Assembly: GCF_026810505.1 (NCBI RefSeq)
Contig: NZ_CP101750.1
Location: 3,191,254-3,255,253 of the forward strand
DNA from: Streptomyces sp. Je 1-369
Lineage (GTDB): Bacteria; Actinomycetota; Actinomycetes; Streptomycetales; Streptomycetaceae
Reading direction: 5' to 3'
DNA length: 64,000 bases
The first letter of the stretch is position 1. The number at the start of each line of letters is the position of its first letter. Positions 42,416-46,810 of this stretch are shown piece by piece. Position numbers and translations under genes: made by a program. A model generated the notes under the pieces. That model ran no database searches. It was not told where the DNA came from and worked only from the letters and a program-made list of their open reading frames with translations.

Positions 42416-42434
42416 TTAGCTTAGGTTAGCCTAA
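42416..42434. promoter_or_regulatory. Iron box upstream of desE (DmdR1/IdeR-type)
   Basis: TTAGCTTAGGTTAGCCTAA matches 15 of 19 positions of the DmdR1/DtxR consensus TTAGGTTAGGCTCACCTAA and lies inside the longer near-palindrome AGCTTAGGTTAGCCTAAGCT (42418-42437). It is 57 bp before the desE start. Iron-loaded DmdR1 should repress desE. Confidence 0.85.
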
Positions 42435-42490
42435 GCTCTAATTCCGGCCAGCGGCCCCGCCGCCGTACGTCACGAAAGCAGAGACCCCAC

Positions 42491-43531
42491 ATGCGCCAGG
42501 TCCGCCTCCCCCAGCCGTCCCGCCGGGGCATCCTCGCCGCCGGCGGCGCCCTCGGCCTCACCGCCGCCCTCGCGGCCTGCGGCAGCGAGAAGAAGGACGG
42601 GTCGGGCAAGACCGAGGGCGGCGGCAAGACCGGCCCCTGGAGCTTCAAGGACGACCGCGGCACGACCGCGAAGCGCGACGCGACGCCGAAGAACATCGTG
42701 GCGTTCACCGGTGTCGCCGCCGCCCTGTTCGACTACGGCATCGAGGTCAAGGGCGTCTTCGGCCCGACGAAGACCAAGGACGGCAAGGCCGACGTCCAGG
42801 CCGGCGACATGGACATCAGCAAGCTGACGATCATCGGCAACGAGTGGGGCCAGTTCAACATCGAGAAGTACGCGGGCCTCGCCCCGGACGTGCTGATCTC
42901 CACGATGTTCGATGACAAGGGCACCCTCTGGTACGTCCCGGAGGAGAGCAAGGACAAGATCCTCAAGCTCGCCCCGAGCGTCGGCGTCAGCGTCTACGAC
43001 CGCCAGCTCACGCACCCGCTCCAGCGCATCCAGGCGCTCGCCGAGTCGCTCGGCGCGGACGTGAAGGCCGACAAGGTCGTCAAGGCGAAGAAGCGCTTCG
43101 AGGACGCCTCCGAGCGGCTGCGCAAGGTCGCCAAGGCGCACAAGGACATCAAGGTCCTCGTCGGCTCCGCGAGCCAGGACCTGTTCTACGTCTCCGGCTC
43201 CAACCTCTCCGTCGACCTGGAGTACTTCAAGGCGCTCGGCGTGAACCTCGTCGAGCCCCCGGAGCAGGCCAAGAAGGAGTCCGGCGGCTGGTTCGAGAAC
43301 CTGAGCTGGGAGAACGTCGACAAGTACAAGGCGGACGTCATCATGATGGACAACCGCTCGTCGGCGATCCAGCCGGCCGACATCGCCAAGCCGACCTGGA
43401 AGAAGCTGCCCGCGGTCAAGGCCGGACAGGTCATCCCGCGCATCGCGGAGCCGATCTTCTCGTACGACAAGTGCGCGCCGATCCTCGAGGACCTGGCCGA
43501 CGCGATCGAGAAGGCGAAGAAGCTCAAGTAA
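42491..43531 (+). CDS. desE: Siderophore (ferrioxamine) binding lipoprotein DesE
   Basis: 346-residue iron-siderophore ABC transporter solute-binding lipoprotein. The signal has a twin-arginine-like SRRGILAAGGALG and lipobox LAAC with Cys30 lipidated. The class III binding-protein fold shows PKNIVAFTGVAAALFDYGIEVKGVFGPTKTKDGKADVQAGDMDISKLTIIGNEWGQFNIEKYAGLAPDVLISTMFD in the N lobe and IMMDNRSSAIQPADIAKPTWKKLPAVKAGQVIP in the C lobe. In Streptomyces this protein binds ferrioxamines outside the membrane and hands them to an ABC importer encoded elsewhere. The gene is complete, with its iron box, and directly precedes the damaged biosynthesis genes. Confidence 0.92.
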   Translation: MRQVRLPQPSRRGILAAGGALGLTAALAACGSEKKDGSGKTEGGGKTGPWSFKDDRGTTAKRDATPKNIVAFTGVAAALFDYGIEVKGVFGPTKTKDGKADVQAGDMDISKLTIIGNEWGQFNIEKYAGLAPDVLISTMFDDKGTLWYVPEESKDKILKLAPSVGVSVYDRQLTHPLQRIQALAESLGADVKADKVVKAKKRFEDASERLRKVAKAHKDIKVLVGSASQDLFYVSGSNLSVDLEYFKALGVNLVEPPEQAKKESGGWFENLSWENVDKYKADVIMMDNRSSAIQPADIAKPTWKKLPAVKAGQVIPRIAEPIFSYDKCAPILEDLADAIEKAKKLK

Positions 43532-43545
43532 CGACACGTCACCCG

Positions 43546-43582
43546 CCGCCCCCTTCATGCCCGGAGGGGGCGGTTTCGTTTT
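43546..43582 (+). terminator. Rho-independent-like terminator after desE
   Basis: CCGCCCCCT (43546-43554) pairs with AGGGGGCGG (43565-43573) and is followed by TTTCGTTTT. It separates desE from the desA promoter, so the two are independent iron-controlled units. Confidence 0.85.
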
Positions 43583-43612
43583 CCGGCTCCCGGCCTCCAC
43601 ACGGAGTCGAGA

Positions 43613-43631
43613 TTAGGTTAGGCTTGCCTAA
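43613..43631. promoter_or_regulatory. Iron box upstream of desA
   Basis: TTAGGTTAGGCTTGCCTAA matches the DmdR1 consensus TTAGGTTAGGCTCACCTAA at 17 of 19 positions, 27 bp before the desA ATG, which still has a good GGAGGA ribosome binding site. The control element is better preserved than the enzyme it controls. Confidence 0.9.
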
Positions 43632-43658
43632 GTTAATCCCTCACCCGGAGGACAACCC

Positions 43659-44870
43659 ATGCGCTCGCACCTGCTCAACGGCACCACCGCGGAGCGGTAC
43701 CGCACCTCCGTGACCGCAGGAGTCGCGTCCGTCGACCTGGACGAGCCCTTGTACGACACCCTCGCGGCCCTCGACGAACTCGACGAGCTGCATGTGGGGG
43801 ACGCCGTACGCCCCCACGGCCCCCGCCACCTCGGCACCTGGGACCAGCCGCCCGGCGCCCCGCTCATCGAGCGCCGCCTCATCGACTGGACCGCCGAGCG
43901 CATCGGCCTCGGACCGGCCGCCGGGGGAGCGTTCACCGACGGAGGCGCCGACGCCGAACTGCAGGCGCTGCTGCTCGCCCGCGAGGAGGCCGCGGACCGC
44001 GACCCCGCCGCCCTGCGCGTCTTCGTCTCCGAGGCCGCCCAGACCGGCGTCCGGCGCACGGCCCGGCTGCTCGGACTCGGCGACGAAGCCGTCGTGACCG
44101 TCCCCACCGACCGCGACAAACGCCTGCAGACCGTGGCCCTCGCCCGCGCGCTGGAGCGCTGCGCACGCGACGACCTCTCCCCCATGGCGGTCGTCGCCAC
44201 CGCGGGCACCGCCGACTTCGGCTCCATCGACCCGCTGCCGGAGATCGCCGGGCTCTGCGCGCAGTACGGCACATGGCTGCACGTGGACGCCTCGTACGGC
44301 TGCGGGCTGCTCGCATCGCGCCGCAACCGGCACCTCATCGACGGCATCGAGCGCGCCGACTCCGTCACCGTGGACTTCGACAAGTCCTTCTTCCAGCCGG
44401 TGGGTTCGTCCGCCGTCCTGGTACGGGACCGGGCGCTTCCCGAGCCGCGGACGAGCCGCCGCTTCGACGCGCTGAAGCTGTGGATGACGCTGCGCGTGAT
44501 GGGCGCGAACGGCATCGGCGACCTCTTCGACGAGGTCTGCGGCCTGGCCACCCGCGGCTGGGAACTGCTCCTCGCCGACCCGCGCTTCGACGTCGTGTCC
44601 GAGCCGCAGCTCTCCACGCTCGTCTTCCGCTACATCCCCGCGACGATCTGCTCGCCCGCCGCGATCGACCGCGCCAACCTGTACGCCCGCAAGGAGCTCT
44701 ACACCTCCGGCGACGCGGTCGTGGCGACCACCCGGGCGGGCGGCCGCCAGTACCTCAGGTTCACCCTGCTCAGCCCCGAGACGACCACCGCCGACATCGA
44801 AGCCGTCCTCGACCTGATCGCCGGCCACGCCGAGCAGTACCTGGGAGAGCACCTTGACCGCGCTTGCTGA
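43659..44870 (+). CDS. desA: Degenerate DesA (PLP-dependent lysine decarboxylase remnant)
   Basis: 403 residues against ~480 for normal DesA, the PLP group II decarboxylase that makes cadaverine for desferrioxamine. The start MRSHLLNGTTAERYR and end LDLIAGHAEQYLGEHLDRAC match DesA. Three internal blocks are missing in frame: ~25 residues after position 22, ~23 before GTWDQ, and ~25 between SSAVLVRD and RRFDALKLW. The conserved active-site His after the SEAS segment is gone (now SEAAQTG), and the His before the PLP Lys is Asp (DFDKSFFQP). TSGGTQSN-type residues are altered to TDGGADAE. Probably inactive as a decarboxylase, although the frame is open and the promoter intact. Confidence 0.85.
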   Translation: MRSHLLNGTTAERYRTSVTAGVASVDLDEPLYDTLAALDELDELHVGDAVRPHGPRHLGTWDQPPGAPLIERRLIDWTAERIGLGPAAGGAFTDGGADAELQALLLAREEAADRDPAALRVFVSEAAQTGVRRTARLLGLGDEAVVTVPTDRDKRLQTVALARALERCARDDLSPMAVVATAGTADFGSIDPLPEIAGLCAQYGTWLHVDASYGCGLLASRRNRHLIDGIERADSVTVDFDKSFFQPVGSSAVLVRDRALPEPRTSRRFDALKLWMTLRVMGANGIGDLFDEVCGLATRGWELLLADPRFDVVSEPQLSTLVFRYIPATICSPAAIDRANLYARKELYTSGDAVVATTRAGGRQYLRFTLLSPETTTADIEAVLDLIAGHAEQYLGEHLDRAC

Positions 44871-45150
44871 CCTCCACCTGCCCACCGCCCGCCTCGACTG
44901 CGCGCTCCGGCCGGTCGATCCCCTCACCGACGCCGAGCTGGTGCACGCCTGGGTGACGCACCCCCGGGCGGAGCACTGGATGCCGCGGAACGCCACCCTG
45001 ACCGACGTCGAACGCGCCTACATGGCGATCGCGGCCTCCAGCCACCGCGAGGCCTACCTCGGGCTGCGCGAAGGCGTGCCCTCCTTCCTCATGGAGTGGT
45101 ACGACTTGCGGGAGCTGTCGGCGGGCCAGGGCACCTGCGGCGACGCGTAG
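44854..45150 (+). pseudogene. desC: Truncated DesC (siderophore acyltransferase) N-terminal fragment
   Basis: The first ~78 residues match the N-terminus of DesC/IucB-like acyl-CoA acyltransferases: ALRPVDPLTDAELVHAWVTHPRAEHWMPRNATLTDVERAYMAIAASSHREAYLGLREGVPSFLMEWYD. Normal DesC is ~180 residues with the acyl-CoA site in its second half. Here the frame leaves homology at about 45111 and runs 15-20 residues antisense through the end of the hexosaminidase gene. TTG at 44854 overlaps the desA end and has GGAGAG before it. desB, which normally lies between desA and desC, and desD, which follows, are absent. Confidence 0.82.
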
Positions 45151-46730
45151 TAGCCGATGCCCAGCGCGTCCCAGCGCGGGGCCTGCGCGGCGAGCCGCAC
45201 CTTGTACGTGTCCCAGTCGTGCGTGGCGGCCGGCGACCAGCCGAGCTCGGCGATGCCGGGCAGCCGCGGGAACGCCATGTAGTCCAGGTGGGCGGGGGTC
45301 GAGAGGGTCTCCGTCCACAGCGGCGCCTCGACGCCGATGACCGCGTCCTCGGGCGCGCCCTTGAGGTAGGTGGCCGGGTCCCAGTCGTAGGAGCGCTGCA
45401 CCTCGACGTAGCCCGCCCACGAGAGGCCGAGCGGCGTGTCCTTGGTGTACTTGTGGTCGATGTAGGCGCGGTCGGCCGGTGAGAGCAGCAGCTTGGTGCC
45501 GTTCTTCGCGGCGTTCACGACCTGTTCGCGCTCGGCGGCGCCTGTCCTGTCGTAGCCCCAGTACTGCGCGACGGCGCCCTTGGCCGGATTGGCGCCTGCC
45601 AGCTGGTGCCAGCCCATCACCGTCTTGCCGTACTTGGCGACGATCGGCTGCACCTTGTCCATGAAGGCGACGAAGTCCTCGTGGCTGGTGGAGTGCGCCT
45701 CGTCGCCGCCGATGTGCAGGTACTTGCCGGGCGTCATCGCGGCGAGCTCACGGATCACGTCGTCCACGAAGTCGTACGTGACGTCCTTCTTGACGCACAG
45801 GGAGCTGAAGCCGACCTCGGTGCCGGTGTAGAGCGGCGGGGCGACGCCGTTGCAGTTCAGTTCGGCGTACGAGGCGAGGGCGGCGTTGGTGTGTCCCGGC
45901 ATGTCTATCTCGGGGACGACTTCCAGGTACCGCGAGGCGGCGTAGTCGATGATCTCCTTGTACTGCGCCTTCGTGTAGTAGCCGCCCTTGCCGCCGCCGA
46001 CCTGCGTGGAGCCGCCGTATGTCGTGAGGCGCGGCCAGGAGTCGATGGCGATGCGCCAGCCCTGGTCGTCGCTCAGGTGCAGGTGCAGCTTGTTCATCTT
46101 GTAGAGGGCGGCCTGGTCGATGTAGCGCTTGACCTGGTCGACGGTGAAGAAGTGCCGTGACACGTCGAGCATCGTGGAGCGGTAGCCGTAGCGCGGCATG
46201 TCCTTGACGGTGCCGCCCGCGATCCGCCAGGGGCCGCGCTGCTTCGTCCTCTTCTCCACGGCGGCGGGCAGCTGCTGCCGCACGGTCTGTACGCCGTGGA
46301 AGAGACCGGCGCCGCTCCAGGAGGTGATCGTGAGGGAGCCGCGCGCGGAGATCACGCGGTATCCCTCGTCGCCGAGCGCCTTGTTCGCCGGTTCGGCGCT
46401 GATGCGCAGCCGGATGCCGTCGGATCCCTTGTCGGTGGTGACGGGGAGCCGGTAGCCGGTGGAGGGGCGGAGGACCTCGGCGAGGTATTCGGCGACGCGG
46501 CGCTCCTCGGCGTTGCCCTTGCCGACGCGGATGCGCGTCTTGGCGGTGATCTCGTATCCGGTGCCACCCGGCTCGGCGGCCAGGGGCGCGGGCACGACCT
46601 GGCCGAGCGGTGTGGCGGCGGGGGCTCTCGCCTCTCCCGGGGCGGGCGCTGCGGCGAATGAGGAGATTCCGGCGGCCGCCACGAGCAGCAGCGAGCCGAG
46701 AATGCGTGTCGTTCTTCTGTGCGATCTCAC
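45054..46730 (-). CDS. Secreted GH20 beta-N-acetylhexosaminidase with altered C-terminus
   Basis: 558-residue exo-beta-N-acetylhexosaminidase that releases GlcNAc from chito-oligosaccharides. The signal peptide is TTRILGSLLLVAAAGISSFAAAPAPGEA. The GH20 N-domain (GTGYEITAKTRIRVG, GLFHGVQTVRQQLP) and barrel (RYGYRSTMLDVSRHFFTVDQVKRYIDQAALYKMNKLHLHLSDDQGWRI; VPEIDMPGHTNAALASY) are complete, with catalytic Asp-Glu in HIGGDEAHSTSHEDF. Homology ends at SPQVPWP; the final ~22 residues are read antisense from the desC remnant because the native stop was lost. GTG at 46730 fits GAAGGGA upstream. A dre-like site precedes it. Confidence 0.9.
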   Translation of the reverse strand: MRSHRRTTRILGSLLLVAAAGISSFAAAPAPGEARAPAATPLGQVVPAPLAAEPGGTGYEITAKTRIRVGKGNAEERRVAEYLAEVLRPSTGYRLPVTTDKGSDGIRLRISAEPANKALGDEGYRVISARGSLTITSWSGAGLFHGVQTVRQQLPAAVEKRTKQRGPWRIAGGTVKDMPRYGYRSTMLDVSRHFFTVDQVKRYIDQAALYKMNKLHLHLSDDQGWRIAIDSWPRLTTYGGSTQVGGGKGGYYTKAQYKEIIDYAASRYLEVVPEIDMPGHTNAALASYAELNCNGVAPPLYTGTEVGFSSLCVKKDVTYDFVDDVIRELAAMTPGKYLHIGGDEAHSTSHEDFVAFMDKVQPIVAKYGKTVMGWHQLAGANPAKGAVAQYWGYDRTGAAEREQVVNAAKNGTKLLLSPADRAYIDHKYTKDTPLGLSWAGYVEVQRSYDWDPATYLKGAPEDAVIGVEAPLWTETLSTPAHLDYMAFPRLPGIAELGWSPAATHDWDTYKVRLAAQAPRWDALGIGYYASPQVPWPADSSRKSYHSMRKEGTPSRSPR

Positions 46731-46810
46731 AAGCGGGTCCCTTCGGGCGCATATGTGGTGCATCGCAATCGAACGGTCCTCATTGGTAACCCGGCCCCCA
46801 CAAGGGGTCA

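Follow-up and report, generated by a model that had tools for sequence, protein, structure and literature searches.

We analyzed a 64,000-nucleotide window, positions 3191254-3255253 of a one-contig Streptomyces genome of 8,820,026 bases (8.82 Mb), which contains a reduced desferrioxamine (des) locus. The first gene, desE, encodes an intact lipoprotein. Its residues 31-345 align with S. coelicolor DesE, for which structures have been solved (2x4l/6enk; E 1.9e-150); full-length homology and a position beside des genes make it, on sequence grounds, a probable ferrioxamine receptor. A terminator-like hairpin follows desE, with three overlapping terminator-like matches versus 1.0 expected from shuffles. 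Iron boxes stand 5' of desE and desA, as judged by a pattern built on what we take to be the DmdR/DtxR-type consensus, which gave four matches (two places, both strands) versus none in 100 shuffles. These features and the likely desA ribosome-binding site, GGAGGA, had been proposed in a preliminary description of this DNA, and all were confirmed.

The locus has the DmdR-type iron boxes of a functional desABCD cluster but does not encode DesA, DesB, DesC and DesD together. Like the S. coelicolor-type des locus (desE, desF, desABCD), the window contains desE, the iron boxes and desA, and its β-N-acetylhexosaminidase neighbor occurs as in many intact relatives. The window differs from that locus in that the 127 bases separating desE from desA contain no desF, only the start of desB and half of desC are retained, and desD is missing (Table 1).

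Table 1. Coordinates of the features of the des locus (positions within the window).
Feature	Position	Strand	Basis
Iron box (DmdR/DtxR-type palindrome) 5' of desE	42416..42439		Pattern match
desE, ferrioxamine-binding lipoprotein (putative), 346 aa, intact	42491..43531	+	Match to 2x4l/6enk; omega
Terminator-like hairpin 3' of desE	43545..43574	+	12-pair stem
Iron box 5' of desA, 1 mismatch	43613..43631		Pattern match
GGAGGA, likely ribosome-binding site of desA	43647..43652	+	Read from sequence
desA relic, 403 aa, open frame, active-site motifs altered	43659..44870	+	
desB start codon (TTG) and ~14 codons, fused in frame to desC	44854..44898	+	By-eye alignment
desB-desC fusion ORF, 98 aa; DesC residues 5-78 at 44884-45105, then hexosaminidase-end sequence	44854..45150	+	
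β-N-acetylhexosaminidase, C-terminal tail altered, 3' end antisense to desC relic	45054..46763	-	

Broken synthesis genes and their junctions

The DesA relic is 403 residues long, compared with 479-491 in 17 homologues (19 loci were taken, two of which gave no start). In-frame losses of 26, 25 and 26 residues lie near positions 43722, 43833 and 44433-44446; S. silaceus and the G44/S. huasconensis pair are also deleted in the third stretch, with differing lengths. Relative to the majority of homologues, SHFS is changed to AQTG, TSGG(T/S)QSN to TDGGADAE and DYHK to DFDK, and the lysine of DYHK and the aspartate of HVDA are still present. An active DesA lysine decarboxylase is full-length and carries the SHFS, TSGG and DYHK motifs, so the relic is predicted to be inactive; desA would have lost three internal segments together with its active-site signature. 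In the window, 27 bases separate the iron box from the desA start, with no leader stem-loop, and in three relatives the desA leader forms a strong stem-loop (z -2.8 to -3.5; L139:10220-10305, L086:10137-10222, L047:4198-4278).

The surviving desB start codon overlaps the stop codon of desA, an arrangement shared with intact clusters. A tblastn search at 1e-5 found no match to desB or desD within the locus, and DesC matches there cover residues 5-78 only, ~74 homologous residues. Sought genome-wide, desD was not found; two IucA/IucC matches sit together in another operon. The preliminary description thus holds for the short DesA with its three in-frame losses and altered active site, for a desC that ends after ~78 residues and for the loss of desD. 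It had also called desB absent, which is true of the bulk of the gene but not of its start and ~14 codons, which persist fused to desC.

An 8-bp repeat, CGACTTCA, occurs in phase at both the desB and the desC start of the intact sisters G109 and G263; in these genomes the start codons of the two genes are separated by 1310 and 1304 bases, respectively (~1.3 kb). The window, G44 and S. huasconensis all have their fusion point at CGACTTCA, judged by eye. We propose that a deletion reaching from the desB start region to the desC start eliminated desB; a slip between the two repeats would give the observed fusion. A second deletion, of ~2 kb judged from G109, may then have joined the middle of desC to the end of the hexosaminidase gene, removing desD. 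This second break connects desC near residue 78 to the last hexosaminidase codons, so that the intergenic hairpin is gone and the two reading frames overlap antisense by 97 bases (window 45054-45150). In relatives, a hairpin missing in the window is seen by eye between desC and the hexosaminidase gene.

Reduced des loci among related Streptomyces

Eighty named loci were fetched by DesE. DesA-D are present in 65, the locus is reduced in 8, and in the other 7 the sequence stops too close to desE for a call. Among named relatives, S. atriruber was the closest found, with 93% identity in DesE and 99.5% in acyl-CoA dehydrogenase; its contig ends within desA. The reduced loci can be ordered by degree of loss. 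In S. sp. NRRL B-1347, desD is lost and desB is eroded (51% identical over 347 codons). S. silaceus, S. sp. G44, S. huasconensis, S. lasiicapitis, S. longispororuber and G367, the last from a set other than the 80, keep desE-desA-desC and have lost desB and desD. In S. alfalfae and S. seoulensis desE stands alone with the hexosaminidase gene directly 3' (S. alfalfae XY25 has desE without desABCD), and G149 has desE without any des genes in the 19 kb fetched. In all, desE is retained in 11 loci without desD, desB or both, three of them without nearby desA-D. The preliminary rule that capture is kept applies to these 11 but fails in G019, where desA and desC are present with out-of-frame remnants of desD, and where a search for DesE at E<=1e-90 gave no match. 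DesC is full-length in G44, G367, S. longispororuber and G019.

Two of these loci show further rearrangements. By eye, G367 (L050:5740-5800) contains a desB mini-ORF made of the first and last codons, with desC's own start left in place. In the draft assembly of S. huasconensis, desA (L082:10167-11555) has two small deletions, of 2 bases and 1 base, so that ~59 residues are scrambled before the frame is restored; the normal stop is lost, and the frame runs for 881 codons.

A tree of two flanking genes places the intact pair G109/G263 among reduced species (support is weak, 56-59, at some nodes), which means that a single simple loss does not account for the history. The DesA tree sets the window, S. 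silaceus, G44 and S. huasconensis apart from G109/G263 (support 92). The same loss could have been repeated at CGACTTCA, or alleles could have been exchanged; long branches could also produce the DesA grouping. The junctions of S. lasiicapitis, S. longispororuber, G367 and G019 differ from that of the window, and des loss therefore likely occurred more than once.

Across the genus, 76 of 392 Streptomyces genomes, counted by eye, have no DesD match better than 1e-200, two of them doubtful negatives (G240, 88% complete with a partial DesD, and G305, with a divergent cluster). DesA persists at E<=1e-120 in seven of the 76, G240 and G305 included. A DesE match at E<=1e-90 was counted by eye in 57/76 DesD-negative and 283/316 other genomes; these are upper bounds rather than proof because a 54% identical paralogue (8.7e-106) also passes the cut-off.

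Selection on synthesis genes and receptor

Pairwise Nei-Gojobori ratios (omega) differ between intact and reduced loci. DesA gives 0.11-0.29 in nine intact pairs versus 0.46-0.81 in ten reduced pairs, and DesC 0.20-0.46 versus 0.43-0.93, the window DesC being computed on 74 codons. For DesE the ranges are 0.15-0.37 (intact) and 0.18-0.48 (reduced), and the acyl-CoA dehydrogenase gives 0.02-0.13. These ranges indicate that the synthesis genes relax and that the receptor mostly does not. DesA omega is 0.26-0.76 in 11 reduced-intact pairs and 0.32-0.36 in two G019 pairs. Three results fit this pattern poorly: DesE reaches 0.48 in the window-G44 pair and 0.64 in S. seoulensis-G149, and S. lasiicapitis DesA, the least relaxed, is hardly changed against intact relatives (0.26, 0.45).

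Other siderophore genes and the retention of desE

The preliminary description had proposed that synthesis was lost and capture kept, a view that turns on whether an intact desABCD set lies elsewhere. None was found by DesA protein, IucA/IucC, Lys/Orn oxygenase or Acetyltransf_8 profile searches of the genome, and together with a mostly constrained DesE and relaxed DesA and DesC this upholds the proposal. The best other DesA match in the genome is 41% identical. An aminotransferase and an acetyltransferase are encoded alongside the two IucA/IucC genes in the operon at 6.52 Mb. The two strong N-hydroxylases are encoded in clusters other than des and share 41% and 32% of their residues with DesB, versus 81% for an intact sister. 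The first belongs to a decarboxylase-oxygenase pair at 2.325 Mb, which we rejected as a spare desA-desB, its members being only 37% (DesA) and 41% (DesB) identical; the two families adjoin in several DesD-negative relatives too. The second, at 6.548 Mb, is accompanied by a formyltransferase, a permease, an ATPase, a binding protein, exporters and a 3678-residue NRPS with three adenylation, four condensation-type and three carrier domains. From gene order and gene roles, we take the NRPS cluster to be coelichelin-type, and the 2.325 Mb pair with the 6.52 Mb NIS operon to be rhizobactin-like, the products being predicted. The rhizobactin-like pathway seems split over two places 4.2 Mb apart (L041, L030). 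With both gene sets kept, the strain probably does not lack siderophores altogether; desferrioxamine would be the one chelator that it fails to make. Co-loss of desGH, considered in light of PMC12161575, was uninformative, since intact G109 likewise has no third Acetyltransf_8 match at 1e-10.

We consider it quite probable that the des locus is in advanced decay, one siderophore pathway being lost in a multi-siderophore genome, with the iron-controlled receptor retained for ferrioxamine made by others. desE itself remains intact under iron control and purifying selection; the most likely reason is that it still captures ferrioxamines of other organisms. Against this reading stand the high DesE ratios and the hardly relaxed S. 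lasiicapitis DesA described above, G019, which keeps desA and desC without a close DesE, and the nesting of intact G109/G263 among reduced species. The DesE paralogue, which has neighboring permease-like genes, counts against it too, since DesE may not be the sole ferrioxamine route. This second receptor (L168, genome 2053247-2054263) has an iron-box-like sequence 5' of the gene and, by eye, divergent permease-like neighbors and a downstream siderophore-interacting-reductase-like gene.

Siderophore receptors can be promiscuous, and DesE might instead be kept for the strain's other siderophores or for fungal hydroxamates. We regard this as unlikely, because homology to the solved S. coelicolor protein, which PMC13293324 describes as a ferrioxamine receptor, extends along the length of DesE, and because the NRPS cluster carries its own binding protein.

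Somewhat less likely still is that the strain is a true cheater that depends on ferrioxamine from its neighbors, as an intact, constrained DesE under an iron box beside lost desferrioxamine synthesis could suggest. The term 'cheater', used in the preliminary description, fits insofar as the receptor is present and synthesis of that one siderophore is absent, which concerns the desferrioxamine genes only. In the sense of a strain with no siderophore of its own, or of one that benefits from neighbors, the term probably says too much, as coelichelin-type and rhizobactin-like gene sets are encoded here. Moreover, one or more N-hydroxylases are retained at E<=1e-60 in all 76 DesD-negative genomes (two of them doubtful negatives), and PMC8493286 reports that S. 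alfalfae XN-04 is CAS-positive and carries a 100% coelichelin cluster.

A last reading concerns the relic itself. After loss of desB and desD, two clades would have held on to a smaller desA-desC unit, still under iron control, either as a transcript or as a dead DesA with a DesC-type acyltransferase, in a role other than desferrioxamine synthesis; its promoter and start would be maintained while enzyme activity is lost. In two reduced clades, the desA iron box (identity 0.94, 0.97) and first 21 nt (0.97, 0.98) are conserved while the 40 bp 5' of the box have diverged (0.62, 0.61), a pattern that plain decay does not predict; the single intact pair compared gives 0.95, 1.0 and 0.78, respectively. 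Omega stays below 1, DesC is full-length in the four loci named above, and desA has no internal stop in 9/9 reduced loci with a complete desA, in S. huasconensis by way of two frame-restoring deletions. The probability of no stop under drift is 0.003-0.49 in an unbiased model but 0.47-0.85 in a GC-biased one; because it depends on the mutation model, open frames decide nothing, and we rejected them as proof of function. We find such a role improbable, as S. huasconensis lost its normal desA stop, active-site residues were lost differently by lineage (including the Schiff-base lysine in G367 and S. longispororuber), S. alfalfae and S. seoulensis lost the whole unit and the window DesC is cut in half.

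Several known systems resemble this locus in part. Bruns et al., in 2018, reportedly found desferrioxamine lost and replaced in Salinispora; there, too, des biosynthesis was lost in an actinomycete, whereas the other pathways of our strain are types seen in relatives, and we claim no replacement. Receptor-bearing 'cheaters' in the Vibrionaceae are said to have been described by Cordero et al. in 2012. PMC5812596 reports them as well, and the likeness is a receptor for a siderophore that the genome cannot make; the Streptomyces differ in that relics persist beside the receptor and the stages are visible in named sister species. PMC13061897 describes piracy of another strain's DFO-B among Streptomyces with an intact des cluster, a use that we suggest for our strain as well, except that the cluster is conserved and expressed there and deleted here. 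The same paper calls the desferrioxamine cluster well conserved across Streptomyces, which contrasts with the 76 of 392 genomes (two doubtful) without a strong DesD match. PMC13293324 gives a DFO cluster in 987/5,940 genomes, 771 of the 987 with desE. We recognized no account of this Streptomyces series in a literature search by titles and abstracts whose coverage leaves out many journals.

The locus is ordinary in kind, and its value lies in the natural series of stages. In the S. atriruber/silaceus/alfalfae and S. longispororuber groups, related species range from the complete cluster to the receptor alone, so that the question of whether a public good is lost while selection holds its receptor becomes testable with ordinary strains.
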